NCBI RefSeq assembly: GCF_027923405.1
Contig: NZ_BQYI01000001.1
Coordinates: forward strand, 2,334,501-2,398,500
Length of the DNA stretch: 64,000 nt
Reading direction: 5' to 3'
DNA from: Paenibacillus sp. YYML68
GTDB taxonomy: Bacteria; Bacillota; Bacilli; Paenibacillales; NBRC-103111
Part shown: piece by piece, positions 11,605 to 28,163 of the stretch
Layout: every line of letters begins with the position of its first letter
How positions within the stretch are numbered: the stretch's first letter is position 1
The notes under the pieces: generated by a model
What the model saw: only the letters and a program-made list of their open reading frames with translations
Database searches by the model: none
Told to the model about the DNA's origin: nothing
Position numbers and translations under genes: made by a program

Positions 11605-11630
11605 TGTATTATCTTGCAATAACGTATAAC

Positions 11631-12068: not shown

Positions 12069-12080
12069 GCAAGCTCATAT

Positions 12081-12116
12081 AAGCCGTCTGCTCCGAGTGG
12101 AGTGACGGTTTTTTGT
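12081..12116 (+). terminator. Orphan plus-strand terminator
   Basis: CCGTC-TG-CTCC, loop GAGT, GGAG-T-GACGG, then TTTTTT form a good intrinsic terminator. No plus-strand gene lies upstream within 2.5 kb, so it may be the leftover 3' end of a lost gene or may insulate the tetR operon. Confidence 0.6.
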
Positions 12117-12130
12117 TGTATTCATTGTGA

Positions 12131-12172
12131 ATATATGATAAAATTATTCATATAGTCATTTTATTCATATAT
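12131..12172 (+). promoter_or_regulatory. AT-rich inverted repeat upstream of tetR (candidate operator)
   Basis: ATATATGATAAAAT (12131-12144) and ATTTTATTCATATAT (12158-12172) are near-perfect inverted copies with a 13-nt gap, placed directly before the TetR gene. A dyad there is where TetR-family autorepression usually occurs; binding is inferred. Confidence 0.5.
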
Positions 12173-12197
12173 GATTGATTATAGAGGAGATTCGTTT

Positions 12198-12818: not shown

Positions 12819-13672
12819 TCGAGGTCCAATCGGTAACGTACACGTATCCGAGGCAAGCGGAGCCTGCTCTGCGTGACATCAGCTTCGACATTAGGCGAGG
12901 TGAAATATTTGGCTTTCTTGGACCGTCGGGAGCGGGTAAGAGCACGACGCAGAAGCTGCTGATTGGGCTGCTGAAGGGGTATCAAGGCTCCGCGCAGGTG
13001 CTTGGTCGCGAGGTGAGCGAGTGGGGGCCGGACGACTACGAGCGAATTGGCGTCGCCTATGAGTTCCCCTACTTCTACGAGCGGTATACGGCGAAGGAGA
13101 ATTTGAACTGGTTCGGCTCGTTGTATCGGAAGCCGTCAGAGAGTCCCGAGCAGCTGCTTGCGCGCTTCGGTCTTGAGGAGGCGGCGAACCGTAAGGTCGG
13201 GCAGTTTTCCAAAGGGATGAAGATGCGTCTAAACGTATGCCGGGCGATGCAGCATGAGCCCGAGCTGCTGTTCCTCGACGAGCCGACCTCGGGCCTTGAC
13301 CCTGTCAGCGCACAGCAAATGAAAGAGCAGATCGTAGCCTGCAAGGCGAAGGGGCAGACGGTCATCCTGACGACGCACAACATGGCGGCGGCCGAGCAGC
13401 TCTGTGATCGGGTCGCCTTCGTGACGGACGGCCGCATTCGGCTCATCGATACGCCGCGGCAGCTGAAGCTGAAGTACGGGGCGCGGCGAGTGACCGTGGA
13501 GCATCGGGAGAGGGGCGGGGTGCTGGTCGCAGAGCATTTTGAGCTGGACGGCCTTGGCGATCATGAGCGCTTCTTAGCGCTGCTTCGCACGGGCCAAGTG
13601 GAGACGCTGCATTCGCAGGAGACGACGCTGGAGCGGATTTTTATCGAGGTGACAGGGAGAGGCTTGCAATGA
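12815..13672 (+). CDS. ABC transporter ATP-binding protein (drug-export type)
   Basis: Nucleotide-binding subunit of a three-gene exporter. Walker A GPSGAGKST, the Q-loop region, a signature read as FSKGMKMRL (an LSGG variant FSKG), Walker B LLFLDEPTSGLDP and the switch His in TTHN are all present. The C-terminal 60 residues after about 215 form an accessory domain. The FSKGM signature is common in DRA-type drug and lantibiotic exporters. ATGA overlaps on both sides link it to tetR and to the permease. Resemblance to fluoroquinolone-export ABC operons is noted, but the substrate is unknown. Confidence 0.88.
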   Translation: MIEVQSVTYTYPRQAEPALRDISFDIRRGEIFGFLGPSGAGKSTTQKLLIGLLKGYQGSAQVLGREVSEWGPDDYERIGVAYEFPYFYERYTAKENLNWFGSLYRKPSESPEQLLARFGLEEAANRKVGQFSKGMKMRLNVCRAMQHEPELLFLDEPTSGLDPVSAQQMKEQIVACKAKGQTVILTTHNMAAAEQLCDRVAFVTDGRIRLIDTPRQLKLKYGARRVTVEHRERGGVLVAEHFELDGLGDHERFLALLRTGQVETLHSQETTLERIFIEVTGRGLQ

Positions 13673-14433
13673 GGCAGCAGATGATGAAGACGTCTAGGTC
13701 GTGGGGGTTGCTCTGGAGCTGGCGCCGTTGGATGAACGGGTTCAGGCAGGACATCTCGTTCCAATGGAGGCATCGGTTCTATCATGCGTATATGTTCGTC
13801 TGTGCGGCGTATTACTTGCTGATGCTGTGGATTCCTGAGGCGTACCGTGAGAAGACGGCTGTCGTGCTGACGTTCTCTGACCCGAGCGCGCTCGGCCTGC
13901 TATTCGCTGGCGGGATCGTCCTCTTGGAGCGTCAGCAGCGGCTGCTCGACTGCTTCTTCATCACGCCTTACCGTGTGACGGAGTATGTGCTGTCGAAGGG
14001 GGCCTCGCTCGGACTCTTATCTCTTGTTGTAGCGTTCCTGATACACGGCTTCGCGGCTGGACTGCCGGATGCCCCGATTCACTTCGCGCTGGGCGTCCTG
14101 CTGACGTCGCTGTTCTTCACATGGCTGGGCATTGGTCTCGCGCTGCGTTGCCGTAGTCTGAATGGGTATCTGCTCTATTCGCAAGCTTGGACACTGGTCT
14201 TCGTCCTTCCGCTGCTTGGCTATCTCGGCGTACTGCAGCAAGCTTGGCTTGCGCTCATTCCGACGGATGGGACGTTCATTCTGCTGGAGGCCGATGAGGC
14301 GCACGTTACGTGGGTTGAGCTTGCGAGGAGCTACGGTCTATGGTTAGCCGCTGATGCGGGAGCACTGCTATTCGCTTCTCGTATGCTGAAGCTGACGATT
14401 CAAGGTAAGATCGGAGGCGGTCTCAATGGGTAA
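13669..14433 (+). CDS. ABC transporter permease, first subunit
   Basis: Integral membrane subunit of about 254 residues with roughly six hydrophobic segments (for example AYMFVCAAYYLLMLWI, GLLFAGGIVLLE, LGLLSLVVAFLIHGFAAG, LLTSLFFTWLGIGLAL, LVFVLPLLGYLGVLQ, LAADAGALLFASRM). The layout matches ABC-2-type export permeases. It overlaps the ATPase gene by ATGA and the second permease by 8 nt. Base composition is GC-rich like the core genome, unlike the genes on either side of the operon. No substrate can be inferred. Confidence 0.82.
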   Translation: MRQQMMKTSRSWGLLWSWRRWMNGFRQDISFQWRHRFYHAYMFVCAAYYLLMLWIPEAYREKTAVVLTFSDPSALGLLFAGGIVLLERQQRLLDCFFITPYRVTEYVLSKGASLGLLSLVVAFLIHGFAAGLPDAPIHFALGVLLTSLFFTWLGIGLALRCRSLNGYLLYSQAWTLVFVLPLLGYLGVLQQAWLALIPTDGTFILLEADEAHVTWVELARSYGLWLAADAGALLFASRMLKLTIQGKIGGGLNG

Positions 14434-15178
14434 AAGCTCACTGCGACTGCTCGCCGCTGACCAAAGGCGGGTGTTGGTCGACCCCGCTATATGGACGAGC
14501 GTGCTCGGTCCTGTTGCCATTACGGCATTCGCAAGGTGGGGCGTGCCAGCCATTCATACGCTTTTGTTCGAATGGTTAGGATACCGCTTATCTGACTATT
14601 ATGATGAGCTTCATCTATTGCTCCTGCTGTTCATCCCGATGCTGATCGGGTTGATGACCGGCTTCAAGCTGCTGGAGGAGCGGGATCAAGGCATATCCGC
14701 ATACGTCGCGATCACACCGCTCATGCGCTCAGGCTACGTTGTTCAACGGCTGCTGCTGCCAACGGCGATCGGACTAGCAGCGGCGCTGGTGTATCAATAT
14801 GGGAGCGGTCTGGCTCTGAATGGGACAGGGAATGGGACAGGGAATGGGACAGGGATGACGATGGGGGTCGTTGTGCTGGTCGCCTTGCAGGTGCCTCTAT
14901 ATGCGTGCATGCTAGCAGCCTTCTCTTCGAACAAGATTGAGGGCTTGGCGATGTCCAAGCTCGGCTCGCTGCTACCGTTCGCGGCGCTCGTTGTTATGCT
15001 GCTTGAGCATCCGGGAAAGCTGGCATTGCTCGTAGTGCCGACAGCTTGGCTAGGGGTGCTGGATGAACCGGAGGTTTATGACATTCATCTGTTGTGGCTG
15101 TTGGTCGGTGCAGTAGTGGTGCATGGCGTTTGGTTCGTGGGGGCGTTGTGGGCTTATTGGAAGCGGTCGGAGGGATGA
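14426..15178 (+). CDS. ABC transporter permease, second subunit
   Basis: Second membrane subunit (250 residues) expected to form a heterodimeric channel with the preceding permease. Hydrophobic segments include LLLLFIPMLIGLMTGF, VQRLLLPTAIGLAAALV, VVVLVALQVPLYACMLAAF and LLVGAVVVHGVWFVGALWAYW. Between TM segments a 12-nt unit AATGGGACAGGG is repeated about three times (14819-14856), encoding NGTGNGTGNGTG, a likely slippage-prone loop. Part of this gene (14610-14763) has a decayed copy at 15583-15736. Last gene of the tetR operon. Confidence 0.82.
   Translation: MGKSSLRLLAADQRRVLVDPAIWTSVLGPVAITAFARWGVPAIHTLLFEWLGYRLSDYYDELHLLLLLFIPMLIGLMTGFKLLEERDQGISAYVAITPLMRSGYVVQRLLLPTAIGLAAALVYQYGSGLALNGTGNGTGNGTGMTMGVVVLVALQVPLYACMLAAFSSNKIEGLAMSKLGSLLPFAALVVMLLEHPGKLALLVVPTAWLGVLDEPEVYDIHLLWLLVGAVVVHGVWFVGALWAYWKRSEG
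14819..14856 (+). repeat. 12-nt tandem repeat inside the second permease
   Basis: Three successive AATGGGACAGGG units (the first preceded by CTG) encode a Gly-Thr/Asn loop. The unit is a multiple of three, so copy-number change would keep the frame. Confidence 0.8.
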
Positions 15179-15220
15179 TGTGAGGTGAGTGGCATTTGAA
15201 TCCGACTAGCCTCATTACAG

Positions 15221-15300
15221 CAAGGCACAAAACATTTTGTTATTAAAAAAGTTGCAGATGTAAATACAATTGTTGGTGATCCTGTTGAAACGCCGGACAG
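15221..15300 (+). pseudogene. Relic of a ytfJ (gerW) 5' region
   Basis: Bases 15241-15299 align without gaps to 18541-18599 inside intact ytfJ, with a 29-nt identical core (15262-15290 against 18562-18590). CAAGGC at 15221 also matches 18512, suggesting that decayed homology extends upstream. The frame is not maintained before or after. It directly follows the ABC operon, where ytfJ may once have been. Confidence 0.75.
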
Positions 15301-15334
15301 GAAGGGGGTTGCATACGACAAAACTCACATAAAA

Positions 15335-15363
15335 AGGAGTGGCAGTCAGTCTGCCGCTCCTTA
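15335..15363 (-). terminator. Hairpin terminator, minus orientation
   Basis: AAGGAGTGGCAG / CTGCCGCTCCTT (one G-U pair) has a T5 tail on the minus strand (plus AAAAA at 15331-15335). It would end the minus-strand fragment that follows; its distal arm is part of the 35-bp direct repeat. Confidence 0.6.
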
Positions 15364-15382
15364 TGCATTCTTAATTTGATAC
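15348..15382. repeat. 35-bp direct repeat, copy 1
   Basis: Identical over 35 bases to 18320-18354. It contains half of a terminator and the end of a decayed minus-strand reading frame. The two copies bracket about 3 kb that includes the permease fragment, the small secreted protein gene and the IS element. Confidence 0.9.
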
Positions 15383-15558
15383 AATTTCCTTTTTGGAATT
15401 CCATCAACATCAATCTTTAATAATTCCCTTTTATTCACCACCCAAGGTTTTGATATTTTCTTAGATCGTTTACTTGTCAACGTGCTTGTCTCCACCAATG
15501 GAGTTTTTGTCTGTGAAGTTCGGATGAAGTATTGTATTAAACTCGAAAGTTACTGGAT
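15361..15558 (-). pseudogene. Decayed minus-strand gene fragment (C-terminal end)
   Basis: An open minus-strand frame of about 65 codons ends in TAA at 15361 and is followed by a matched terminator. Its product is basic and protein-like (…KISKPWVVNKRELL… ending LYQIKNA) but starts directly after a stop with no start codon or ribosome site. I read it as the C-terminal remnant of an unidentified gene. Confidence 0.35.
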
Positions 15559-15582
15559 GATTGTTATTAACGACGGCATAAT

Positions 15583-15736
15583 TTCATATATTGCTCCTGC
15601 TATTCATCCGATGCTGGTCGGTCTGATGACTGGATTCAAGCTGCTGGAGGAGCCTGGTCATGGCATATCAGCATACATAGCGATCAAGCTGCTCCTGCGC
15701 TCAGGCTAGTTCGTGCAGCGACTGCTATTGCTAATG
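15583..15736 (+). pseudogene. Duplicated fragment of the second ABC permease
   Basis: Strongly similar at nucleotide level to 14610-14763 (shared stretches include GGCTTCAAGCTGCTGGAGGA with one change and GCATATC.GCATAC). It encodes PMLVGLMTGFKLLEE…GHGISAYIAIK, then hits TAG at 15707 after a one-base shift. It is a dead copy carried in the scrap region. Confidence 0.8.
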
Positions 15737-15890
15737 TGCTACAGTTGTCCGATCGAATAGATAATTTTAAAATTAACAGATCGGTTTTTTCCTTAATAAT
15801 TACATTGTCTCTCACATTTCGCTATTGTATGTTATTCACTAGTTCGTGAACTTTTTATAACTAGCTAAGCGGAGGGAGGATTAGTATTGT

Positions 15891-16463
15891 ATGAAAAAGA
15901 AATTGGTAGCCTTAGTAGCAAGCTTGGCTTTAATAGGTGGACTATCCTACCATTATGCGGATCAAAAAATTGTTGCGGAAGCTTGGTATGGGGAATATAA
16001 CCACGCTATATACGACAACGTTGATGACCTATATAAGGATTCTACATTAGTTGTAAGTGTTACTGCCACTTCAAATACAAAAGAACTTTCCGAACAGAAC
16101 TTCGAATACACTGATCGTTACTCGGTAACAGAAGTTAACATTGATAAAGTAATTAAGGATCAAAACAATGCGGTAGCTAATAGTTCATCCATACCCATTA
16201 TTGAACGTGCATTTACCGTAGATAACGGTATCGTTCCAGGTAAGACTAAGTTGGTTGCAGATGGATATACAACACTCGTACCTGGAAATAAATATATTTT
16301 GTTTCTAAACTGGTCTGAAAAAAGAAACGCGTATTGGATTCACGCTGTCAGCCAAGGCAAAATCAGTATTGATGGTAAGGATATAAAAGAAAATAAGTTT
16401 GCTTCCAAAGATGAAACCTTCCAGAAACTTAAAGATAGTGTAAACAAAAAGTTTGCACATTAG
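15891..16463 (+). CDS. Small secreted protein of unknown function
   Basis: A 190-residue protein with a signal peptide (MKKKLVALVASLALIGGLSY). The mature part is hydrophilic, with motifs STLVVSVTATSNT, YSVTEVNIDKVIKD and LVPGNKYILFLNW, suggesting a compact beta-rich extracellular domain. I cannot name a family. GGAGGGAGG lies about 13 nt before the ATG, a long but workable spacing. It is AT-rich relative to the core, sits between gene scraps and the IS element, and is probably acquired. Confidence 0.6.
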   Translation: MKKKLVALVASLALIGGLSYHYADQKIVAEAWYGEYNHAIYDNVDDLYKDSTLVVSVTATSNTKELSEQNFEYTDRYSVTEVNIDKVIKDQNNAVANSSSIPIIERAFTVDNGIVPGKTKLVADGYTTLVPGNKYILFLNWSEKRNAYWIHAVSQGKISIDGKDIKENKFASKDETFQKLKDSVNKKFAH

Positions 16464-16569
16464 TAGCACTAAATAAGTATTCGACTTTAGCCATCCCCCT
16501 GTGTCACAATAGTTGTCGTACCCCTCGATAAAAAGTATAGTAGAACCAGAGAGGCAGAGGTGACGGACG

Positions 16570-17066
16570 ATGGCTAGATACAGTGAGGAATTGAAATGCA
16601 ACATACAACTACGAATGATCCCCCCGCATAATGAATCTGTGAGTCAGATTGCAAGAGACAGCGGCCTGTCCGAAGGGACGCTGTACAAGTGGCAAAAAGA
16701 AGCCCGAGCGAACGGCGCTGTCGTTCCAGGTGGCGGAGCAGAGCCCGAGAAATGGAGTAGTCGGGATAAGTTTTCGATTGTGCTGGAAACCGCTACGTTG
16801 AGCGAAGTCGAACTGGCCGAATACTGTCGTGCCAAAGGACTCTACGCAGAACAGATTGAAGCTTGGCGGGATGCTTGTATGCAAGCCAATGGTGGACTCG
16901 CCCAACAGGCATCCCAGCTGCAAAAAGAACTCCGAACTAAAGAGCGAGAAATGAAGACGCTCACTCGGGAGTTAAAACGAAAGGAAGCTGCTCTAGCCGA
17001 AACGGCAGCGCTTCTCGTGCTGCGAAAAAGGCACAGTCGATCTGGGGGGACCAAGAGGACGCATGA
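16570..17066 (+). pseudogene. IS3-family OrfA (helix-turn-helix protein), apparently frameshifted near its end
   Basis: OrfA supplies sequence recognition for the transposase. Residues 1-60 hold the helix-turn-helix (SVSQIARDSGLSEGTLYKWQKEAR), a second similar unit follows, and residues 115-150 form a coiled coil (LQKELRTKEREMKTLTREL) for multimerisation. The expected end, read after restoring one A in the A5 tract at 17025-17029, would be KKAQSIWGDQEDA and stop at TGA 17064-17066, overlapping the OrfB ATG. As it stands the frame slips and runs on to 17259 with unrelated sequence. It may be a mutation or a slippage-type expression signal. Confidence 0.65.
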
Positions 17067-18133
17067 TCAGTGCCTCAGATCGACGAATGGCCATGGAACT
17101 GATCCAAGAAGCAGTAGATGCTGGAGCCAAAGAAGAGGCGGCATGCCAAGAGATCGGATTAACGCAGCGGACCTTGCAGCGGTGGCGCAAAGAGGGCGCA
17201 CCGCAAGAGGATCAACGGCCGCATGCGGTAAGGCCTGCCCCATCCCACAAGCTAAGTGAAGTGGAACGACAACAGATTATCGAGGTCGTGAATCAGCCGG
17301 CATACAAGAGCCTTCCACCTAGCCAAATCGTACCACGACTGGCTGATGAGGGTGTCTACATGGCGTCCGAATCGACATTCTATCGCGTAATGCATGCTCA
17401 TGGACAGCAGCACCATCGAGGTCGCAGTAAGAAGCCTGTTTCGAAGCCGTTAACGAGCCATTGTGCTGTGGCGGCCAACCAAGTGTGGATGTGGGACATC
17501 ACCTGGCTACCTGGTCCTGTGAAGGGTTTATTCTACTACCTCTATCTCATCCTGGATCTATTCAGCCGAAAAATCGTAGGCTGGGAGGTATGGAATGAAG
17601 AATCCGCGGAGCATGCGAGCACATTGGTTCGTCGAACGGTCCTGAGCGAACAGTGTGTTGTGCGCAAGGAGCCGCTGGTCCTGCATTCGGATAACGGGAG
17701 TCCGATGAAGGGTGCCACTCTACTTGAAACGTTATACAGCCTAGGAATCACGCCCTCCAAAAGCAGGCCGCGTGTCAGCAACGATAACCCTTACGCCGAG
17801 TCGGTGTTTCGCACCTGCAAATACCGCCCCAGCTACCCGTTACATGGATTTAAGTCGACGACAGAAGCCCGTGAATGGGTACGGAAGTTCGTCCATTGGT
17901 ATAACACTGAGCATCACCACAGCGGGCTTAATTTCCTGACCCCTAACCAAAGGCATAAGGGACTTGCTGAACAGATTTTTGAGAAGAGAAAGCGAGTGTA
18001 CGAACAAGCTAGACAGGACAACCCAAGGCGGTGGTCCGGGAAGATAAGGAACTGGAGTCTAGACGAACGAGTGTATCTTAATCCCGAGAAAGTCCAGCAC
18101 TCCATAGCTACAACAACGGCGACACAAGCCTGA
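17063..18133 (+). CDS. IS3-family transposase OrfB (DDE integrase)
   Basis: Catalytic transposase subunit of 356 residues. An N-terminal helical HTH-like part (LTQRTLQRWRKEG) is followed by an integrase core with the catalytic triad D145 (WMWDITW), D210 (LHSDNGSPMKG) and E246 (YAESVFRTCKYR). The 35-residue gap between the last two is the classic D-35-E of the IS3 family. The C-terminal HHHSGLNFLTPNQRH is also typical. All catalytic residues are intact, so OrfB itself looks active; mobility depends on the OrfA defect. Confidence 0.93.
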   Translation: MISASDRRMAMELIQEAVDAGAKEEAACQEIGLTQRTLQRWRKEGAPQEDQRPHAVRPAPSHKLSEVERQQIIEVVNQPAYKSLPPSQIVPRLADEGVYMASESTFYRVMHAHGQQHHRGRSKKPVSKPLTSHCAVAANQVWMWDITWLPGPVKGLFYYLYLILDLFSRKIVGWEVWNEESAEHASTLVRRTVLSEQCVVRKEPLVLHSDNGSPMKGATLLETLYSLGITPSKSRPRVSNDNPYAESVFRTCKYRPSYPLHGFKSTTEAREWVRKFVHWYNTEHHHSGLNFLTPNQRHKGLAEQIFEKRKRVYEQARQDNPRRWSGKIRNWSLDERVYLNPEKVQHSIATTTATQA

Positions 18134-18493: not shown

Positions 18494-19042
18494 ATGACTG
18501 AACATCCAATCCAAGGCCTAATGAAAACCGCAATGGAAAATATTAAAGAAATGGTTGATGTCAATACAATTGTTGGTGATCCTGTTGAAACACCGGACGG
18601 CAGCGTCATCATGCCGATCAGTAAGGTGGGCTTCGGCTTCGCGGCAGGCGGTAGCGAGTTTATTATAGAGGAGCCGGCACAAGGTGCATCAGCAGCACGT
18701 ACAGACGCACACAATGCCTCTGTCGCGCTTCCGTTTGGCGGCGGTAGCGGCGGCGGTGTATCGATTACGCCAATCGCCTTCTTGGTCGTAGGTAAGCAAG
18801 GCGTGAAGATCGTGCCGCTTGACAACCAAACGCACCTGCTGGAGCGTCTGATCGACTCCGCTCCTCAAGTCGTAGACCGCATCCAGACGATGATGAAGGG
18901 CAAGCAGTCCGGCTCCGCATCCCAAGGCATGGGCGCTTCCGGTATGAACTCGACTACGGACAGCACTATGGGTGCAACGGCAGCACAGAACTCGCAGGCT
19001 AATCAGACGAGCCAGTCCGACAACAAAAACTTTATTGTATAA
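18494..19042 (+). CDS. ytfJ: GerW family sporulation protein (YtfJ)
   Basis: Spore protein required for normal germination in Bacillus; made in the developing spore. The 182-residue protein has the family core: IKEMVDVNTIVGDPVETPDGSVIMPISKVGFGFAAGGSEF (recognised by its ends NTIVGDPV and GFGFAAGG), then a Gly-rich GGGSGGGVSITPIAFLVV. The C-terminal 50 residues are Ser/Gln/Asn-rich and low complexity. AAGGAGGAG precedes the ATG. It is GC-rich, like the core, and stands isolated between two accessory blocks; its usual neighbour ytfI is at 8.9-9.55 kb and a relic of its own 5' region is at 15.2 kb. Confidence 0.92.
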   Translation: MTEHPIQGLMKTAMENIKEMVDVNTIVGDPVETPDGSVIMPISKVGFGFAAGGSEFIIEEPAQGASAARTDAHNASVALPFGGGSGGGVSITPIAFLVVGKQGVKIVPLDNQTHLLERLIDSAPQVVDRIQTMMKGKQSGSASQGMGASGMNSTTDSTMGATAAQNSQANQTSQSDNKNFIV

Positions 19043-19063
19043 GCTGATTCTTTTTAATTATTG

Positions 19064-19095
19064 GGCTGCCCACATTGTGGGTGGTCTTTTTTTTC
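19064..19095 (+). terminator. Intrinsic terminator of ytfJ
   Basis: GGCTGCCCA (19064-19072) pairs with TGGGTGGTC (19078-19086), with G-U pairs, and a long T-run follows. Confidence 0.8.
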
Positions 19096-19510
19096 TACTC
19101 CAGTGAGTCACTATGGCATACTCAATTGATTTGCGTTTTTAGTTACCTGTCCGTTCCACTATGAACGCTATTACCGCACTTGAGGGACTACTTCAGAAAA
19201 AAATCTACTCCTCCTCCTATTCCTTAAAATACTAGGGGGATTTCATGATGTACTGCCGACAGAACGAATTTTATTCTTAGATTCACATATTTATTTTATT
19301 ATCATTTCAACGTAACGTTTTTTAGGTTCAGAGCGGCAATGTTGGATCGTAAGTTAAGACACGAAGGTAGCCTCCTAATAAGCATTAATGGATAGCTGGT
19401 TAAATAATTGATAGCGGGATTCCTAGTATAATGGCTTCGAATTTCAGGAGCGCCCTCTAGTTGTCGTTACTTTACTCTTATTAAGTCTTGAATGCTTGTA
19501 TTTCTTCATA
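19096..19510. other. AT-rich gap upstream of the RiPP cluster
   Basis: I see no supported gene, RNA or repeat here. The composition is already AT-rich, like the cluster that follows, so the left edge of the acquired segment probably lies soon after the ytfJ terminator. Confidence 0.55.
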
Positions 19511-19530
19511 TGTAATCAGATGTAATCAGA
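19511..19530 (+). repeat. Tandem 10-bp repeat next to the cluster promoter
   Basis: TGTAATCAGATGTAATCAGA is two perfect head-to-tail copies, ending 13 nt before the presumed -35 box. One-turn-spaced direct repeats at this place are typical activator or repressor sites; the protein is unknown and is not encoded in the cluster. Confidence 0.7.
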
Positions 19531-19543
19531 CGGATAGGACAAA

Positions 19544-19572
19544 TTGACTATGGAAAATATTATAAATTTAAA
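19544..19572 (+). promoter_or_regulatory. Candidate promoter of the RiPP cluster
   Basis: TTGACT (19544-19549), a 17-bp spacer and TTTAAA (19567-19572) precede the precursor by about 70 nt. The -35 is good and the -10 weak, as expected for an activated promoter. Confidence 0.45.
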
Positions 19573-19639
19573 TAAAATAAAGAGAGTAACACAACTTGCA
19601 TTTATCTACTGAATAGGAAAAGAAAGGAGGTTGTGTAAT

Positions 19640-19792
19640 ATGGCATTTAAGATCCGTTCTGTCAACGAGAATAAAGAACTCTGGACTAATTTAGCTGATG
19701 AAGTCGAAGAATTGGAAAACAGAGATGAGATGTCTTGCTTGCAGATAACTTGCTGCTTCAACATCTGTTGTTTTCAGATAAACAACGCTTAA
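19640..19792 (+). CDS. Candidate RiPP precursor peptide, Cys-rich, 50 residues
   Basis: Small gene with a near-perfect ribosome site (AAAGGAGG, 19623-19630) 9 nt before the ATG. The N-terminal part, MAFKIRSVNENKELWTNLAD then EVEELENRDEM, is hydrophilic and acidic, like a leader. The C-terminal 19 residues SCLQITCCFNICCFQINNA are sharply different, with five cysteines at 33, 38, 39, 43 and 44 (C-X4-CC-X3-CC) among hydrophobic and Asn/Gln residues. It lies directly upstream of two radical SAM/SPASM genes, a protease and an ABC pair, the classic position of a modified-peptide substrate. The class (sactipeptide, ranthipeptide, other carbon-linked or epimerised) is not decided by sequence. I know of no named peptide with this core. 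Confidence 0.82.
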   Translation: MAFKIRSVNENKELWTNLADEVEELENRDEMSCLQITCCFNICCFQINNA

Positions 19793-19798
19793 TGAAAT

Positions 19799-19838
19799 AC
19801 GGTGTACTCTACAACTACTATAATGTAGGGTACACCGT
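19799..19838 (+). terminator. Hairpin between precursor and first maturase
   Basis: ACGGTGTAC (19799-19807) pairs perfectly with GTACACCGT (19830-19838), with CTAC/GTAG inside. No U-run follows. Such structures often allow partial read-through or stabilise the upstream transcript, giving more precursor than enzyme mRNA. Confidence 0.65.
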
Positions 19839-19877
19839 CGTATGGAACTTAACAGCATTAAGGAGGGATTAAAGGAC

Positions 19878-21275
19878 ATGATTCTAAATAAATTTCATTT
19901 GCGTTATCCGCTAGATGACAAAGAAACCCTCTTTATTAATACGTTGACCGGTGCTCTTGACTATTTCTCAAACGATGTTATTGAGTATATAGATCGACTA
20001 ACAACATATGGACCTGCTGCCACACAAACAAAAGAAGAGGAAGCTCTTGTACATCTTCTGAAGCAAAGAGGTTATATGTATGATAGTGTTCAAGAGGAGA
20101 ATAAGAGAATTCAGCAGGCTTTGACTTTTTCTACCCCACTACAACAAATGGAATACGTGATATGCCCCACTTATACTTGTAATTTCAGATGTCCTTATTG
20201 TTTCGAGGATCATAGTATTCATGAGAAAATTTCTCTTATGACAGATGAGCAATTAGATGCTGTGATGCTTGCGATAGATTATTTTCATAAAGAAAGTGGA
20301 CTACAGAAGGGATTTTTACAACTATTTGGTGGAGAACCCTTGCTGCCTTTTACCCGTGATATCGTGAAGAAGATATGCGATAAAGCCGTTACTATGGATT
20401 TTAGAATTACTTGTAATACAAATGGGTTTCATCTCGAGAGTTATGTCGATTTAATGTTCCACTACAGGGATCGCATAAACATAACAGTTACTGTTGACGG
20501 TCCTGAAGAAATTCATGATAAGCGCCGTATCTTAACGGGAGGGCAAGGGACGTTTTCTCGGATTGAAAAGGGCGTATTAGCTGCGCTAAAAAAAGGAATT
20601 GGAATAGTTCTAAGGGTAAATATTGACAAAACTAACATCAATTACGTTGGAGATTTGGTCAATCATTATCGAAAAAATGGTTTTATTGAGCACGAAGCCT
20701 TTTTACTCCATTTTGCGCCTATTACTGATCATACTTGTAAGGGCACAGGTGATACGATAATGGAAGGTTTTGAGATCATAAAACGGTTAAGAAAAGATAT
20801 TCCAGACCTCGAAGAACTAGAAAAAAACAATCGTTTGCGTATAGGTCCTGATATGTATCGCTTTTTACATACCGTAATGCGGTTGGACCCAGAACTTCGT
20901 AGCAGAGCAAGTGAATTTGTACCTCACATTGTTTTTTGTGAATCTGTGCAAGGGCGTAAAGTTGTTTTTGGCCCAGACAGCCATATGTATGCGTGTGCTG
21001 ATTTAATTGGCCGGCCTGAATATAAAATAGGTAATTATTTTCCGAATTTCGAGTTAACCCATTGGAAATGGAGTAAGTGGAAGGCGTTTAATTCTCTTAC
21101 AATACAGCAGTGCAGTAGCTGCCATTGTGCTCCGATTTGCGGTGGGGGTTGTGCAGCAGAGGCGCTGATTACATATGGGAACTTGGACAAGCCACATTGT
21201 ACTCATGCCGATCAACAAGTATACAATTACTTAGATAGTATTCGAGACGAGCTCTTATGCTCGGTGGGGGACTGA
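19878..21275 (+). CDS. Radical SAM/SPASM peptide maturase 1
   Basis: Cytoplasmic [4Fe-4S] enzyme expected to modify the Cys-rich precursor. From ATG 19878 (AAGGAGGG about 10 nt upstream; the earlier ATG 19842 lacks a site) it has 465 residues. Residues 1-85 form an N-terminal domain (FHLRYPLDDKETLFINTLTG … LLKQRGYMYD) that may recognise the leader. The radical SAM motif TCNFRCPYCF gives C101, C105, C108, and GGEP is at 151-154. The C-terminal SPASM region shows FCESVQGRK, YACADLIG and CSSCHCAPICGGGCAAEAL…HC, enough cysteines for two auxiliary clusters. It is a paralog of the next gene. AT-rich. The chemistry (thioether formation or epimerisation) is not deducible. Confidence 0.88.
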   Translation: MILNKFHLRYPLDDKETLFINTLTGALDYFSNDVIEYIDRLTTYGPAATQTKEEEALVHLLKQRGYMYDSVQEENKRIQQALTFSTPLQQMEYVICPTYTCNFRCPYCFEDHSIHEKISLMTDEQLDAVMLAIDYFHKESGLQKGFLQLFGGEPLLPFTRDIVKKICDKAVTMDFRITCNTNGFHLESYVDLMFHYRDRINITVTVDGPEEIHDKRRILTGGQGTFSRIEKGVLAALKKGIGIVLRVNIDKTNINYVGDLVNHYRKNGFIEHEAFLLHFAPITDHTCKGTGDTIMEGFEIIKRLRKDIPDLEELEKNNRLRIGPDMYRFLHTVMRLDPELRSRASEFVPHIVFCESVQGRKVVFGPDSHMYACADLIGRPEYKIGNYFPNFELTHWKWSKWKAFNSLTIQQCSSCHCAPICGGGCAAEALITYGNLDKPHCTHADQQVYNYLDSIRDELLCSVGD

Positions 21276-21279
21276 ATTT

Positions 21280-22731
21280 ATGATCCCAAGTACATATAAT
21301 TCATATTATAAACTATCAGACGGAAACTATGTTTTGGTTAATTCTCTAAGTGGAGCTGTGGACACGATTGGACCCGAAGTAAAGTCTTTCTTAGGCAGAT
21401 TAAAGCGAGGTGATATTCCTTCGGGTATACATGTTGAGGAGTTAATCCAATTTTTAACACATAGAGGGTACATCTTCAAAAGTCGTGAGGAAGAATGGAA
21501 AAAGCTTCTTCAGATAAAAGAACAAGTAAATAAAATCTCAGCGATGTCAAATACCGGATTTGTGTTTAATGTATGCACAACGTATATGTGCAATCTGAGA
21601 TGTCCCTATTGTTATCAAGGTCATGAGATTCATAAACAATCGCATGCCCTTAGCCATGAAGAAATTAATAAGCTCTTTGAAGCTGTTGATTCTATACTAA
21701 GCATGGAAAAAAGAAGGGGCAGGTTTGTAAACGCCAGTCATCAAATGATGTTATATGGAGGGGAGCCGCTACTCCCCACAACAAAAGCTGCTGTTTATGA
21801 AGTGGTAAGACGCGGTATTGAAGATTACGGTTTTCGTTTCCACGCCATTACTAATGGTACCTTTTTACATGAATACATCGATTTTTTCAAGCAATATCGT
21901 GATATGTGGGATTACTTTCAGATTACAATTGACGGCCCCAAGCATCTTCATGATCAGATGAGGATTAATGCGAATGGTCGTGGGACCTTTGATCGCATAG
22001 TACACAATATTGATCTTGCGATGGCTAATGGATTTAGAATAGGCTTAAGAACAAATGTAAATAAGGACAATGTTGATCAATTAGAAGAACTAGCATTATT
22101 TATTGAGGACAAGGGCTGGCCTGAACATCCATTATTTCTATGGCAGATATCCCCAGTTACTGATCATTACGGTGATAATTTGCCAAATCATCTGCCTGAA
22201 CACAAGTTACTTGCTGCACTCTATGGAAAATTCGGTAATGTGGATGTATTCTTGGATAAGTTTCACGCACAATTGGGCACCGATCTCAACATGAGAACCA
22301 GTCGAATACGCCAAGCACTTCAATCAAAGGGATGGTCATCCAATCCATGCGATAGCTGTAACTCAACACCTAATACGTTGCCTATCTTCAAAGAATGCAG
22401 CGCAAGAGATCATCGATACTATGCCTTTGGTGCTGAAGGGTTAATATACGCCTGTCCTGAATCTGTTGGTCGTAAAGAACTCGCAGTCGGAACGTTCATA
22501 CCTTCTTATAATATAGACAAAAAGAAGCATGATATGTGGAATCAAGATATAACTGACTCGGAGCAATGCAGTTCCTGTAGTATTGCTTTGTTCTGTGGCG
22601 GTGGGTGTGGCTATACCAATTTAATGAGAAATGGCGATATAAATAAACCATATTGTAATTTCACTCACCCAACAATCTCGACATACATTAAACAAAATGA
22701 GGAGTCGTTTACTGGTGTCTTGAATAATTAA
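21280..22731 (+). CDS. Radical SAM/SPASM peptide maturase 2
   Basis: Second radical SAM enzyme, 483 residues, beginning 4 nt after maturase 1, so co-translated. The N-terminal domain (YYKLSDGNYVLVNSLSGAVD … LTHRGYIFKSREEE) is recognisably like that of maturase 1. The SAM-cluster motif MCNLRCPYCY gives C104, C108, C111; YGGEP is at 159-163. The SPASM part has CDSCNSTPN, FKECSARDH, YACPESVGRKE and CSSCSIALFCGGGCGYTN…YC. The two enzymes have diverged clearly, so each may act on different residues of the same core, or they may work as a pair. GTGGGGG precedes the ATG. Confidence 0.88.
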   Translation: MIPSTYNSYYKLSDGNYVLVNSLSGAVDTIGPEVKSFLGRLKRGDIPSGIHVEELIQFLTHRGYIFKSREEEWKKLLQIKEQVNKISAMSNTGFVFNVCTTYMCNLRCPYCYQGHEIHKQSHALSHEEINKLFEAVDSILSMEKRRGRFVNASHQMMLYGGEPLLPTTKAAVYEVVRRGIEDYGFRFHAITNGTFLHEYIDFFKQYRDMWDYFQITIDGPKHLHDQMRINANGRGTFDRIVHNIDLAMANGFRIGLRTNVNKDNVDQLEELALFIEDKGWPEHPLFLWQISPVTDHYGDNLPNHLPEHKLLAALYGKFGNVDVFLDKFHAQLGTDLNMRTSRIRQALQSKGWSSNPCDSCNSTPNTLPIFKECSARDHRYYAFGAEGLIYACPESVGRKELAVGTFIPSYNIDKKKHDMWNQDITDSEQCSSCSIALFCGGGCGYTNLMRNGDINKPYCNFTHPTISTYIKQNEESFTGVLNN

Positions 22732-22776
22732 TGGATATAATGGGCAGGTTTAGCTGTAGTAAAGGGGGATTAATTG

Positions 22777-24029
22777 ATGTCAAAAATTCAATCCGAATAC
22801 CCGCTAATACTGCCCTATTCGGTATACCCGATGGATACGTCCGGAAGTCGATTGTATTACTTGATCTTATTTGATTCCGGAGCTCAACTGAAAGTTTCAG
22901 ATAAAATATTGAAAATCTTAACTTATTTAGATGGTACACATAGTTATAGTGAAATATGTAAGTCTCTTAGAACAGAACATGGAATATCAATTTGTGAAGA
23001 GGAACTTCGCTTTTTAATAGAAACTCGCTTATCAACGGCTGGAGCTTTTTATTCTGGTGCAAAAGATGAACCACGGAGCTCCAATTATCACTCCGCAATC
23101 ATGTTTCGCACTACTTTTATTCAAGGGATTCATTTTAAGGCGTTAACAGTCCCTTTTCAATTCCTATTTTCAGTGCATTATGCTCTTGCAATGATCTTGA
23201 TAGCTTTACTTTCGGTTCTGTACCATCTTACAAATTACAGGGCTGCCGATTATATGGATCCCCTTAGTACAATGACAGGGATGAGCTTTGCTGTAATACT
23301 AGCTTTACTGTCTATAGTTTTTCATGAATTTGGTCATATTACAGCTGCATTTCGCTTTGGAATTGTCCCCCGAGATATTGGTGTTGGATTGTATCTCCTT
23401 ATGCCTTCCTTATTTGTAGATTTGCGTGAGGCATGGCGACTTCCTAGGAAGCAACGCGTTATTATCGACTTAGCAGGGGTTTACTTCCAACTAATACTCT
23501 TTATACTTTTTGAAATCATGTACTGGATAAGTAACGAGAACGTTTTTTTACTTGCAAACCAATTTATTTTAGTGAGCGTTTGTGTGAATTTGAATCCTAT
23601 TCTTCGTTATGATGGGTTTTGGGCTGTAACTGATGCGCTAGGAATTGTAAATTTTCACTCCAAAGCATTCGAGGTTATAAAAAGTCATTGGTTTTATTTT
23701 ATTTTACGTAAGAGGAGTTATAGGGATAGGTTGGATCGTCCTTTTAGAGATATGCAGGTAAATAGACGTAAAGTACTTATTAAATTTTCCTTTGTTTACT
23801 GGATAACTGTGATTACAGCCACGACCTACATCATTCACACTATGATAAGTGCGCTATTCAGTGGACCGTTCCTGGACTGGGAGTCAAAAAAAGGATTAAT
23901 TGTAGTTCTTGGGATTGCGCTTGTTAATGCAGTCTTTCGGTACGTAGTTAAGAGACAATCACAGCGAAGGAGTGAAAAACGTGCTTCAAAGGGAAGTGAT
24001 GAAAGTCACACAGTTGACCAAAACATATG
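22777..24029 (+). CDS. Membrane M50 metalloprotease with PqqD-like N-terminal domain (YydH-like)
   Basis: Predicted intramembrane site-2-type zinc protease, the likely leader peptidase or maturation factor of the cluster. The first 95 residues resemble a PqqD-type peptide-recognition domain (LKVSDKILKILTYLDGTHSY, EEELRFLIETRL). Several membrane helices follow; HEFGH at 183-187 holds the zinc histidines and catalytic Glu, and NPILRYDG at 273-280 is the second M50 motif. About 417 residues. ATG 22777 follows AAAGGGGGA; the adjacent TTG is not needed. The C-terminal tail is basic. This architecture matches YydH-like proteins of the yyd epipeptide operon. It overlaps the ATPase gene. Confidence 0.85.
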
Positions 24030-24697
24030 AAACGGAATCCGGTAAAGTTCATATTCTAAAAGGGATAAGCTGCTCCTTTCGCCGGGGGGAGCTTGTTAGC
24101 ATTATGGGGCCTAGCGGTAGCGGCAAATCCACCTTGCTCGGGATATTGGGGACATTGGATGTACCCACATCAGGGAGAGTAATTATAGATGGAAGAGATA
24201 TTACGGATCTAAGCGAGCATCAGCTTGTTGAATGTAGAGCTAAAAAAGTTGGATTCGTGTTCCAAGCTTATAACTTGATTTCCACGATGACTGCGCTAGA
24301 AAATGTGATGCTGCCTATGCGCTTCGGGGAACAGAGCGTCGGTCGGAAGAGTATGGAGCAGAGGGCCAGGGAATTGCTAGAGATTGTAGGAATAGGGAAT
24401 AAGACGAGCAATCTTCCTACCCAATTGTCCGGCGGCCAACAGCAGCGTGTAGCCATAGCCAGAGCACTAGCCAATCGTCCTCCCATTGTCGTTATGGATG
24501 AACCGACCGGTAACCTTGATTCTCAGACCGGCCGCAGAATTATTGACCTTATTCTTGAATTACGCGAGAAGTATGAAATGACTTTCGTACTAGCCACACA
24601 TGATCCGTTAATAAGCAAGCTCTCAGATCGGACCATTCATATTCTGGACGGACAAGTATCAAGAGAAGAACCAAGGGAAGAGGTCGTGATGTCATGA
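23981..24697 (+). CDS. ABC transporter ATP-binding protein of the RiPP cluster
   Basis: MacB/LolD-type ATPase. Walker [11 protein letters not shown]-loop VFQAYNLI, signature LSGGQQQR, Walker [12 protein letters not shown] and the switch His in ATHDP are all intact, and the length (about 238) is normal. GTG 23981 is preferred because GAAGGAG (23965-23971) lies 9 nt upstream; ATG 23999 is an alternative. It overlaps the protease gene by about 50 nt and its TGA overlaps the permease ATG (ATGA), so the three genes are coupled. Role: peptide export or producer self-protection, inferred from context. Confidence 0.9.
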
Positions 24698-27237
24698 TTC
24701 TCCGGTCGGCCATCAGAAGTTTAACCCGTGCAAGAGGTCGAACGCTGCTTACGGTGTTTAGCATTCTCATTGGAACGTGCAGCTTCTACATGATGACAAT
24801 GATCACTGGCCTTGTTCCGGCTTCTATAGACCAATCCGCTAGGCAAATGCTGGGCGGAGATCTAGCACTTCAAGCTTATCTAACCCCTATACAGACTGAG
24901 GCTATATCGGCACTTATACCTGCGGAGCAACGAACTGCAATGACTGCTGCATTAGTTAAGTCTAGTATGATTAAATCCGAGGCGAAGACGACCAATATCA
25001 TTGTGAAAGGCGTCGATATACGGTCGTATCCACTAATCGATAATGAACAGTTACCGGGATTGGAGCTTCTAATGCAAGATGAGGTAATTCTGACTGAGGA
25101 TGCTGCGAGCCGATTGAATGTAGAGCCTGGTGATCCAATAGGCCTTCCGAATGCAACCGACGGAACACTTCAGGAGTTTCGAGTGAAGCACATCGTGCCG
25201 CCAACATCTGAAACCTACACGGATGCTTCCATATTAGGGATGGCCTACTTGCCATACGAGCAGGCGATAACGTTATGGAACGAACGGACAGGGAATGTTA
25301 ATGAAGCTTGGTTTATGTTAAAAGATCCCTCAACTGCCGCGAGTCTGAAAGAAGCGATTGCTGCTCAAATTCCAGGCGTGAAGTTGGTGGATCTTGAGGA
25401 CAAGAAGAAGGAGTTGAAGAAGGAATCTCGTAACTTGCTTCTATTTTTACAATTCTTCAGTCTTCTTGCCCTATTTATATCCGGAATCACGATATCCAAT
25501 ACGATGGCTGTTATTGTGGTTTCCCGTCTGCAGGAAGTCGCGGTAATGAAGACGATTGGGATGAGAGCAGCGGCGATTTCACGCTATTTTCTGGCTGAAG
25601 CAGCCGTCTTAGGAATAAGTGGTCTTGTTGGTGGCCTTGTACTCGGCATTATATTCAGTCGGCTCATCGCCTCCTATACGGCATCGCTGCTTACACTTCC
25701 CCTTAAGTGGCATATTGCCCCTGAAGATATCTTCGTTACAGGCCTCGCAGTTTGTGGGGTTACAGGGGTTAGCAGTTGGTTAGCCATTCGCAGAACGAAC
25801 AGCGTTTCCCCGCTTCAATTATTAAGAGATTCTTGGGCAGGTGCCAGTAAGCAGCCGTCCCTTTCCTTCGGTCAGCGTATGCTCTTTATGATTGGTGTAA
25901 GCTTGCTGCTCGGACTTTATTTGAAATCTTTCTTGTACCCAACCTCCGCAGCGTTCACGTTGGGACAATGGTTGTTGTCTTCACTTGCGGCGTTCGGACT
26001 GCTCCTTCTTGCCGCGATATTTATGAAGGTAAGTGCCTTCATATTTAGTATGGTTTATCGATTCATTGGATTATGGAAAAATTACTTCACCAAGCAGATA
26101 TATTTAGGGTTCCATCAACTATCGTCGGCTCATAGGCGTAATAGTGTACTTACTGTAACGCTTACAGTCGGGATCATCTCTGTGATCGCAAGTCATATTT
26201 TCGGTGAAAATTTGATGGCTCAAACGAAAAGTCAGTTGGAGCAGCAAGCAGCAGGCAATCTCTATGTAACGAGCAGTATTCAGGATGAACGAGAAACGCG
26301 CCGTATTCTCCAGGAGACGTCCGGTGTGGAGTCGGTAAAAATGTATCATCAGCTCAATGGGAGCTTGCAGTCCGTTAACGGTCAGAATGTGCTTCCATTG
26401 TTTGCTCAAGCGGCGCAGACCGGGCAATCGTTTTTTAACTCTACTAACTTATCAATTCAAGGAGAAGATGCGTCGGATTCCCAATGGACAGTAATTGAAG
26501 GAAACGTGATTACGGAAGAAGATCAAGGTAAGAACAAGGCGCTTCTCCTAGACCAATATCGGGATGTGCTGAAGATCAAAGTGGGGGACCGGGTAGGTGT
26601 TCGGATTGGTGAACATGTAGAAGAATTTGAAGTCAAAGGCTTCTTCAAATCCGGAATAGTCAAAACCGCAAGCATGCTCATTCCTTCGGACACACTCGTG
26701 AAAGTAGCCGAGCCTGTCCGCGTAACGTTTAGCGTTCGTGTAAATGACGAGCAACTGAGCGGAGCACTCTCGACGGTTAATCGCCAGCTACCTAATAGTG
26801 CGATGGCCTTCCCGGTGGGGGGACAACTCGAAAGCTTGAACAAAATGATTGAGTTCCAACGCACATTTTTCACGATCATTGCTGTGTTTGCATTTGTAAT
26901 TGCTGTTATCACGATCGGTAATCAAATCATTATCTCCATCATGCAGCAGACAAGGGATATCGCTCTGATTAAAACGGTCGGTGCATCGTCCGGAAGGCTA
27001 CTAATTGCGATACTCGTAGAATATGTAACCGTAGCGGCATGTGCGGGCTTCGCTGGTTCCATCATCTCCCTACTGCTGTCGGCGCTAACTCTAAGTGCCA
27101 TGCTCCATGTTCCCGTATCGCTGGACCTGATTTGGTGCTTCATTGGCATCGGTCTAGCCGTCGTCACAACGGGAACTGTTGCTCTGCTAGTCTCTATGAG
27201 ATCACTAGCGATCAAGCCCATTCAAATGCTGCGATAA
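24694..27237 (+). CDS. FtsX-type ABC transporter permease, two FtsX domains
   Basis: An 847-residue permease with an N-terminal membrane segment, a large extracytoplasmic region (about 45-240, MacB periplasmic-like), a first FtsX domain (about 245-365: LLFLQFFSLLALFISGITIS … MKTIGMRAAAISRYFL), two central helices, a second outer region (about 500-690) and a second FtsX domain (about 700-847: IIAVFAFVIAVITIGNQIII … ALIKTVGASSGRLL). It pairs with the preceding ATPase. Such permeases export peptides or extract them from the membrane as immunity. Codon use is less AT-rich than the maturase genes, suggesting a mosaic origin of the cluster. Confidence 0.88.
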   Translation: MILRSAIRSLTRARGRTLLTVFSILIGTCSFYMMTMITGLVPASIDQSARQMLGGDLALQAYLTPIQTEAISALIPAEQRTAMTAALVKSSMIKSEAKTTNIIVKGVDIRSYPLIDNEQLPGLELLMQDEVILTEDAASRLNVEPGDPIGLPNATDGTLQEFRVKHIVPPTSETYTDASILGMAYLPYEQAITLWNERTGNVNEAWFMLKDPSTAASLKEAIAAQIPGVKLVDLEDKKKELKKESRNLLLFLQFFSLLALFISGITISNTMAVIVVSRLQEVAVMKTIGMRAAAISRYFLAEAAVLGISGLVGGLVLGIIFSRLIASYTASLLTLPLKWHIAPEDIFVTGLAVCGVTGVSSWLAIRRTNSVSPLQLLRDSWAGASKQPSLSFGQRMLFMIGVSLLLGLYLKSFLYPTSAAFTLGQWLLSSLAAFGLLLLAAIFMKVSAFIFSMVYRFIGLWKNYFTKQIYLGFHQLSSAHRRNSVLTVTLTVGIISVIASHIFGENLMAQTKSQLEQQAAGNLYVTSSIQDERETRRILQETSGVESVKMYHQLNGSLQSVNGQNVLPLFAQAAQTGQSFFNSTNLSIQGEDASDSQWTVIEGNVITEEDQGKNKALLLDQYRDVLKIKVGDRVGVRIGEHVEEFEVKGFFKSGIVKTASMLIPSDTLVKVAEPVRVTFSVRVNDEQLSGALSTVNRQLPNSAMAFPVGGQLESLNKMIEFQRTFFTIIAVFAFVIAVITIGNQIIISIMQQTRDIALIKTVGASSGRLLIAILVEYVTVAACAGFAGSIISLLLSALTLSAMLHVPVSLDLIWCFIGIGLAVVTTGTVALLVSMRSLAIKPIQMLR

Positions 27238-27452
27238 GCTTCTGAAACAAAATGAAGGAGACGTTGACATGGTGCTGTCGCCGAATCTGAGCTCAAGCTG
27301 CTTCTGGCATTACTGATGTGCCCAACCATTTGGTTCATCGACCTCAAACAAGTTATAATTGATTTATCCAAAGCAAATGATACGAGTCAGTAATAACTGT
27401 CTCGTCATCCTATAACCTGTCTGTAGTTCTTAGTGAGTGAGGTGAATTTCCA
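27238..27452. other. Right edge of the RiPP cluster
   Basis: 215 nt without a supported gene. AAGGAG followed by ATG 27270 opens only 15 codons. Another frame carries about 40 codons without a start (…ELKLLLALLMCPTIWFIDLK…), which looks like a scrap of a membrane protein. This is probably the ragged end of the acquired segment. Confidence 0.45.
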
Positions 27453-28163
27453 ATGTGCGGCAGATATACCATCACACTAGACTGGGACGAGCTCGTCCTC
27501 CGGTTCATGCTCGACCAGCAGCCCGGCAATTACAAGCCGAGATACAACGCTGCGCCGGGGCAGATGATTCCTGCGATAATTAGCGGTGTTGGGCGCGGGG
27601 CCGATGGCAGCACATACGCGCCTGCCAATCGGCTCGGCGAGCTGCGCTGGGGGCTTGTGCCTGCATGGGCGCAGGACGACCGCGGCGGGGCGAGGATGAT
27701 CAACGCGAGGTCGGAGACGGCTGCGGAGAAGCCGGCGTTCCGCCAGCTGCTCGCTCGCAAGCGCTGTCTCATACCAGCCGACGGCTTCTATGAATGGGAG
27801 CGCCGCGGCAAGAGCAAGCAGCCGATCCGATTCGTGCTGAGAAGCGGGGAGCCGTTCGCGATGGCGGCGCTGTACGATACGTGGGTGCGGCCAGATGGTA
27901 CGAAGCTGCATACGTGCTCGATTATGACGACAGAGCCGAATTCGGTTGTGGCCCGTGTGCACGATCGGATGCCCGTCATCTTGACGCGAGATCATGAGGA
28001 GAGATGGCTAGACCGCCGTCTTCAATCCACGAGCGAGCTGCTGCCGATGCTGAAGCCTTATGCAGCGGAGGAGCTTGACTTCTACGAGGTCGACAGCGGT
28101 GTTGGCAAGGTGAGCTGGGATGAGCCGGGCTGTATTGAACGAATCGAGAGTCTGCCAGGATGA
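27453..28163 (+). CDS. SOS response-associated peptidase (SRAP/HMCES/YedK family)
   Basis: Protein that shields abasic sites in single-stranded DNA by a covalent thiazolidine link through Cys2. The start MCGRYT exposes the required Cys2 after removal of Met. Further family marks are YNAAPGQ, RWGLVPAWA, INARSET, the Glu in GFYEWE and the catalytic region MPVILTRDHEERWLD. At 236 residues it is slightly long for the family. A GAGGTGA site precedes the ATG. It stands alone, with no SOS box that I could identify. Confidence 0.93.
   Translation: MCGRYTITLDWDELVLRFMLDQQPGNYKPRYNAAPGQMIPAIISGVGRGADGSTYAPANRLGELRWGLVPAWAQDDRGGARMINARSETAAEKPAFRQLLARKRCLIPADGFYEWERRGKSKQPIRFVLRSGEPFAMAALYDTWVRPDGTKLHTCSIMTTEPNSVVARVHDRMPVILTRDHEERWLDRRLQSTSELLPMLKPYAAEELDFYEVDSGVGKVSWDEPGCIERIESLPG

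Follow-up and report, generated by a model that had tools for sequence, protein, structure and literature searches.

Among bacterial operons for ribosomally synthesised and post-translationally modified peptides (RiPPs), the epipeptide operon yyd/epe joins a radical S-adenosylmethionine (radical-SAM) gene to genes for an M50 protease and an ATP-binding cassette (ABC) transporter pair. For epipeptides and pearlins, processing by M50 proteases has been reported (PMC10885120; this and the other papers are cited from excerpts). In other systems the radical-SAM enzymes act on Cys: CteB is a ranthipeptide enzyme (PMC12093266), PapB recognises a CX3[D/E] motif and forms Cys-Asp links (PMC9413430), and in thuricin CD two radical-SAM enzymes act together on a precursor (PMC12093266). 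Here, we describe a six-gene operon on the plus strand of Paenibacillus sp. YYML68, at positions 19640-27237 of a 64,000-nucleotide stretch of contig NZ_BQYI01000001.1, which we call the window. The operon encodes a 50-residue precursor peptide, two radical-SAM/SPASM maturases (rSAM1 and rSAM2), an M50 protease and an ABC transporter, and very probably makes a small Cys-rich secreted peptide by means of two different radical-SAM enzymes. Its precursor family is without counterpart in the libraries searched; the general kind of system is already known.

The RiPP nature of the cluster is carried first by its precursor. In a tblastn search of 19 loci, the window precursor matched frames beside the maturases of six other clusters with E values of 1e-11 to 4e-15, and the precursor of a seventh is 61% identical over 51 residues. 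Since the matches adjoin maturases in seven other clusters, the gene is not a chance open reading frame (ORF), confirming the earlier note on this DNA, which had proposed a RiPP-type cluster of one precursor and two SPASM maturases from the letters alone. The leader motifs LWT and LENRDEM are invariant in all eight precursors. The core, taken as the part after LENRDEM, varies from 14 to 22 residues with 3 to 8 Cys (5 in the window), and only one Cys and the final pair of adjacent Cys (CC) are invariant; such constancy of the leader beside a changing core is typical of RiPPs. The C-X4-CC-X3-CC core of the earlier note thus holds for the window genome and not for the family. Across the family, three to six residues follow the last Cys, five of the eight cores lack Asp and Glu, none contains CX3[D/E], and several place a Trp or Phe beside Asn, or a Trp near Asp (FN, WN, WCID). 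Within single peptides of the family, CC is not commoner than core composition predicts (lowest p 0.07). The precursor gene lies upstream of rSAM1 in the window and in genomes G045, G233 and G258, and between rSAM2 and the M50 gene in G335, G270, G293 and G622. Radical-SAM RiPPs in general are characterised by this arrangement of a short precursor, constant in its leader and variable in its core, next to intact radical-SAM/SPASM genes. No NCBIfam or Pfam model matched the window precursor, in line with the cluster having been called undescribed-looking. A wider NCBIfam scan, with E up to 10 and seven of the eight precursors, again gave nothing for the window copy, and the others matched four models unrelated by name, each in one or two members (the best, FlaF, at E 0.0009 in two members). 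A literature search with the exact leader and core strings returned no match among the papers covered.

Both maturases are intact by motif, as the earlier note had described. Every copy in the family carries one CX3CX2C motif and one CX2CX5CX3C SPASM block (rSAM1 7/7, rSAM2 8/8). The C-X(9-15)-G-X4-C pattern is found in all eight rSAM2 proteins and in none of the seven rSAM1 proteins, which at the equivalent place have two Cys (C366 and C385) invariant in six aligned copies. Identity to the window copy is 44-61% for rSAM1 and 54-68% for rSAM2, indicating that rSAM1 is the more divergent. In a tree of 22 sequences, each enzyme forms one clade (rSAM1 100/99, rSAM2 100/100). Each clade is divided in the same way: G233, G045 and G258 form one group (rSAM1 98/97, rSAM2 84/87), and a second group holds the window, G622, G335 and G270 (rSAM1 92/91, rSAM2 81/88), joined for rSAM2 by G293. 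The split between the enzymes is therefore old, and the two have probably passed down as a pair. G293 (locus L052) is left out of alignments A2 and A4, since its rSAM1 is missing and its M50 frame is broken; G622 is included in alignments A4 and A5 and in the tree, not in A1-A3. The start of rSAM1 may be the ATG at 19878 instead of 19842: AAGGAGG precedes it, a better ribosome site than that of the upstream start, and a start codon occupies this position in all five aligned orthologs, three of which have no earlier in-frame start. For the orthologs of L053 and L055, whose open frames extend further upstream, the later start was chosen.

What the two enzymes do can be approached from the models that they resemble. 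Among the best 25 NCBIfam models for each enzyme, no maturase family reached its cut-off, while rSAM1 scored 50.4 bits with the general SPASM domain model (cut-off 27). The best models of both enzymes included TIGR04463, CefB and PapB, joined by Clo7bot for rSAM1 and by geopeptide for rSAM2, so that the highest-scoring maturase models belong to Cys-rich-peptide or thioether-forming families. The two maturases scored 146 and 126 bits with TIGR04463 (cut-off 525), 127 and 119 with CefB (cut-off 600), 108 and 116 with PapB (cut-off 340), and 92 and 86 with the SCIFF maturase model (cut-off 425). The sactipeptide models among the best 25 were RumMC at 60 bits for rSAM1 (cut-off 720) and StsB at 69 for rSAM2 (cut-off 625). 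The cyclophane model YhhB gave about 70 bits with both enzymes, and dynobactin DynA, which is of a non-thioether type, 94 and 85. The closest solved chain by sequence was 5wgg, which we take to be CteB (E 3e-24 for rSAM1 and 2e-16 for rSAM2, aligned from about residue 9).

The M50 protein keeps HE[FL]GH and NPxLRxDG in all seven intact copies, each of which is also matched by the daptide protease (NF041824) and YydH/LiaK models. NF041824 was the best NCBIfam model of the window protein, with 109.5 bits against a cut-off of 300, and YydH/LiaK scored lower, at 55.6 (cut-off 225); the kinship to the yyd epipeptide operon proposed earlier is therefore weaker, as it depends on this protein, to which the daptide protease stands nearer. 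A PqqD-like N-terminal region, also proposed, is weak, being matched by Pfam PqqD in one of seven members (E 0.014) and not in the window copy. In the PDB, nothing significant was found with the M50 profile (best E 0.59, limit E 10). The whole operon is summarised in Table 1. Consistent with the earlier description of a 50-codon gene with a strong ribosome site, followed by an M50 gene, an ABC ATPase and a large FtsX permease in one direction with overlaps, the ABC gene starts inside the M50 gene (23981 against an end at 24030) and the permease gene inside the ABC gene (24694 against 24697), and 4 bp separate rSAM1 from rSAM2. None of the six genes is interrupted, their catalytic motifs are intact, and the precursor, rSAM1 (at 19878), M50 and ABC genes have plausible ribosome sites in front of them. 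An Rfam scan of 18900-27600 gave no match, and promoter-like sites in 19000-27500 showed no excess (16, against a shuffle mean of 21.5).

Table 1. Features of the operon in window coordinates.
Feature	Position	Strand	Basis and remarks
Ribosome-binding site of precursor, AAAGGAGG	19623..19630	+	sequence
Precursor peptide gene, 50 aa: MAFKIRSVNENKELWTNLADEVEELENRDEM + SCLQITCCFNICCFQINNA	19640..19792	+	beside maturases in 7 other genomes
rSAM1, radical-SAM/SPASM maturase	19842..21275	+	alternative start 19878; motifs, NCBIfam, orthologs
rSAM2, radical-SAM/SPASM maturase, full seven-Cys SPASM pattern	21280..22731	+	motifs, NCBIfam, orthologs
M50 intramembrane metalloprotease (HEFGH, NPILRYDG), probable leader peptidase	22777..24030	+	motifs, NCBIfam/Pfam
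ABC transporter ATPase, LolD/MacB type	23981..24697	+	start GTG 23981 or ATG 23999; NCBIfam/Pfam
ABC permease with a MacB-like and two FtsX domains; probably for export or self-protection	24694..27237	+	NCBIfam/Pfam

The cluster is rare and scattered. A search for rSAM2 in 392 genomes of the order found orthologs of 55% identity or more in seven, the window's genome included, the remaining matches being 33% identical or less. In a like draw of 392 genomes, the precursor profile reached E 5e-23 or better in exactly these seven, with one further marginal match (G087, E 0.009). The earlier note had tied its proposal to the precursor being conserved beside the maturases, and precursor and rSAM2 ortholog indeed occur in the same seven of 392 genomes. 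Among 394 genomes of the relatives' family rSAM2 was found in the same six others, and a draw of 398 from the class brought one more to light, in G622, which belongs to a different family. These searches scored the best first-look candidates of each genome, up to four for rSAM2 (three in the class draw) and up to 18 for the precursor profile, and absences are absences among those candidates; in the window genome, 18 of 21 candidates were scored and one matched the precursor profile. The full set of six genes is present in six of the other seven clusters. The exception is G293, where no rSAM1 was found, the M50 match is split between frames, and transposase genes (Pfam rve, HTH_Tnp_1), presumably IS3-like, stand directly before rSAM2: this cluster is a decayed copy.

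The window operon also differs from its surroundings. The GC content is 37-39% in the precursor, rSAM1, rSAM2 and M50 genes and 47% in the ABC and FtsX genes, against 53-62% in the neighbours ytfJ, SRAP and dacF. The precursor was not matched at E 0.1 or better in any of 24 other genomes of the genus; in all 18 of these whose locus was examined, ytfJ lies near dacF without the cluster, with SRAP between them in 14. Taken together, the low GC, the empty site in genus-mates and the patchy distribution, with clusters in other genera and in two other families, point to a gain of the operon by transfer into the ytfJ-SRAP interval, as the earlier note had suggested from composition. Phage cargo was considered as the vehicle and rejected, as neither viral contigs nor phage records matched the cluster. 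Plasmid records gave two distant radical-SAM matches (27-29% identity), a pattern scan of genome contigs with protein P0002 gave no relative, and among the matches listed from a scan of genome contigs with alignment A1 there were only distant relatives of 31% identity or less. Separately, a second apparent insertion was seen at 9942-18133 of the window, in the DUF2953-ytfJ interval, with a DUF5050 protein, a TetR-ABC-permease set and transposase genes; DUF2953 directly adjoins ytfJ in 17 of the 18 genus-mates.

On balance we favour, with moderate confidence, a mobile RiPP operon in which both SPASM enzymes act on one precursor leader and jointly make thioethers, the M50 protease cleaves, and ABC/FtsX exports or protects. 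The ribosome would produce the 50-residue precursor, and each radical-SAM enzyme would recognise the leader (LWT, LENRDEM) with its N-terminal part. Both enzymes would then jointly install thioether cross-links from the core Cys, as their resemblance to known maturases suggests. Judged by gene content, the M50 protease would remove the leader in the membrane and the ABC/FtsX transporter would export the peptide, protect the producer, or both. The product would be a short, hydrophobic, cross-linked Cys-rich peptide of about 14-22 residues if cut after LENRDEM (the assumed site), most likely a putative antibacterial or signalling peptide. Several points weigh against this picture. Since both enzymes lie far below every maturase cut-off shown, the thioether chemistry is assigned by similarity. 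PapB-type Cys-Asp links cannot be general, because most cores lack an acidic residue and none has CX3[D/E]. Finally, as so few residues remain beyond the last Cys, acceptors downstream of it, as in a classical sactipeptide hairpin, are awkward to accommodate, so that most acceptors should be upstream of the Cys or between them.

It is also possible, and we hold this tentatively, that one enzyme is the catalyst and the other a leader-binding partner, like TrnC/TrnD of thuricin CD, and that the product is an ordinary sacti- or ranthipeptide. The greater divergence of rSAM1 and its lack of the C-X(9-15)-G-X4-C pattern fit such a division of labour, which the retention of both Cys motifs in every copy of either enzyme speaks against; this retention does not decide the matter, because TrnD too cleaves SAM. 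Another radical chemistry, be it epimerisation or the formation of aromatic-Asn/Asp cyclophanes with the Cys serving as disulfides or metal ligands, appears unlikely. The FN, WN and WCID pairs of several cores, the low-scoring resemblance of the M50 protein to the epipeptide protease YydH/LiaK and the vicinal Cys, which suit disulfides or metal, would agree with it, but thioether and Cys-rich models such as TIGR04463 outscore cyclophane YhhB with both enzymes, DynA coming between, and Cys are the only invariant residues of the core. That the operon is a decaying or inert acquisition in the window genome, as its absence from the locus of genus-mates and the fate of G293 might suggest, is highly improbable given its six open genes, intact catalytic motifs and plausible ribosome sites. 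Joint thioether formation by the two enzymes stays our preferred explanation.

The leader has relatives outside the family. A sister system consists of two tandem radical-SAM genes with a precursor of 40-46 residues between them in all eight loci found (L057-L063 and L189, i.e. G257, G174, G207, G164, G295, G232, G258 and G618), the genomes being seven of the order plus G618; G258 has both systems. The sister enzymes are about 27-35% identical to the window maturases and their precursors follow the pattern MKSL....[LI]W[TS]NLS...ACC. In L057, the pair is adjoined by a B12-type radical-SAM gene that scores 326 bits with the ApyD model (cut-off 750). Comparison of the sister and window leader profiles aligned 15 columns (probability 75%, E 2.5e-5). 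The window precursor outscored 1000 of 1000 shuffles of each of three sister peptides and of the G172 peptide, the other members being weaker (largest shuffle fraction 0.032). In G172, L064 (7349-13226) holds one radical-SAM gene, M50, ABC and permease genes and a 42-residue precursor, LWT..ENLETREEYGCFCFSICFSLCFCFCF, with an LWT...ENLETREEYGC leader and a CFCF-rich core; the precursor of L065 (G077) differs from it at a single position, and the first three genes of L064 also have matches there. The comparisons with the sister and L064/L065 leaders suggest that the window family belongs to a larger superfamily of precursors whose leader is of LW[TS] type. Other observations were made in passing. 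A frame resembling the B12-type gene of L057 was seen by eye in L189 (only these two of the eight sister loci were looked at for it), where a 245-residue frame with GSKG-type repeats (L189:12458-13195) also lies near the tandem radical-SAM genes of G618. Several small Cys-rich ORFs stand between radical-SAM and M50 genes in L068:8635-9235 (G137) and L067:9006-9550 (G095); four have a motif of the E-R-x-E type in their leader, and the loci are perhaps multi-precursor clusters. L069:7762-10809 (G073) has two divergent tandem radical-SAM genes and an upstream 55-residue ORF, MKSLIDLIWND..., with three separate Cys and no CC. L073:11499-13057, from Ktedonosporobacter rubrisoli, shows a row of six similar small Cys-containing precursor-like ORFs after one radical-SAM gene, and L076:3728-10731, a contig of a Bacteroidales metagenome-assembled genome, five consecutive radical-SAM genes by motif.

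We also compared the occurrence of CC with the number of enzymes. Among loci with a candidate precursor, CC was found in 15 of 16 with two enzymes (seven of window type and eight of sister type, L069 being the exception) and in three of 11 with one enzyme (L066, L070 and G293, which lacks rSAM1). The one-enzyme loci counted were those of G172, G077, G095, G137, G360 and G293, L070-L073 and L077; L075 and L076, in which no candidate was seen, were left out. These counts would favour a pair dedicated to vicinal Cys, in which each enzyme takes one Cys of each CC dyad and two adjacent thioethers form a fused multi-ring staple. A strict coupling was rejected, as L066 and L070 have CC with one radical-SAM gene and L069 has none with two. 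Since the independent lineages are few and CC is no commoner than composition predicts, the link between CC and the enzyme pair is a suggestion only, and we regard the dedicated pair as rather improbable. The adjacent-thioether, fused multi-ring topology does not appear in the excerpts of PMC12093266, PMC8326336, PMC9413430, PMC10885120 and PMC8566587.

What the operon contributes is a family of precursors marked by a leader of their own, with compact cores that contain CC, and a pair of radical-SAM maturases that are inherited together. Why one short peptide should be served by two similar radical-SAM enzymes is a question that comes from the work on thuricin CD (PMC12093266), and the operon is a natural system in which to ask it; its cores of 3-8 Cys behind one conserved leader form a natural series for decoding cross-link rules.

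Set against the described systems, it resembles ranthipeptides (PapA/PapB freyrasin, and SCIFF with ScfB/CteB) in the broad SPASM branch of its enzymes, its Cys-rich core and its closest solved chain. It differs from them by its two maturases, CC cores and M50 protease, from PapA/PapB also by maturase scores below the PapB cut-off and the absence of CX3[D/E], and from SCIFF by maturase scores, by a precursor that matches no NCBIfam model and by a core of five Cys instead of the SCIFF six in about 45 residues. At 12 loci with PapB-model matches in the same bacterial family, the candidate precursors seen are CX3D-like or SCIFF-like, without LWT or LENRDEM; one of the 12, L220, showed no such candidate. 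Membership in the freyrasin or SCIFF family was rejected on these scores, motifs and leaders. The sactipeptide models RumMC and StsB are likewise far from their cut-offs. CefB and TIGR04463 systems are among the highest-scoring maturase families for both enzymes, yet their cut-offs are far from reached, no precursor model matches, and two maturases and CC cores are found here. In the distant relatives L071, L072 and L077, the leaders of precursor-like ORFs carry a comparable motif, ELExRxE[ML]; each locus has one radical-SAM gene by motif and no CC, and L071 shows a regular run of Cys. With the epipeptide operon the cluster shares an M50 membrane protease and an ABC pair beside radical-SAM genes, but it has two SPASM enzymes, a Cys-rich core and no precursor-model match, and identity with that operon was rejected as the M50 score is far below the YydH/LiaK cut-off. 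The daptide protease model matches every intact M50 copy, with a window score below its cut-off, and we know of no radical-SAM maturases in daptide clusters. Thuricin CD (TrnA/TrnB, TrnC/TrnD) likewise has two radical-SAM/SPASM enzymes; it differs in its leader and core and has two precursors instead of one, and no thuricin maturase model was among the best 25 for either window enzyme. Judged by these likenesses, the operon most likely represents a new branch of thioether-forming, ranthi- or sactipeptide-like RiPPs in which two enzymes would share one substrate.

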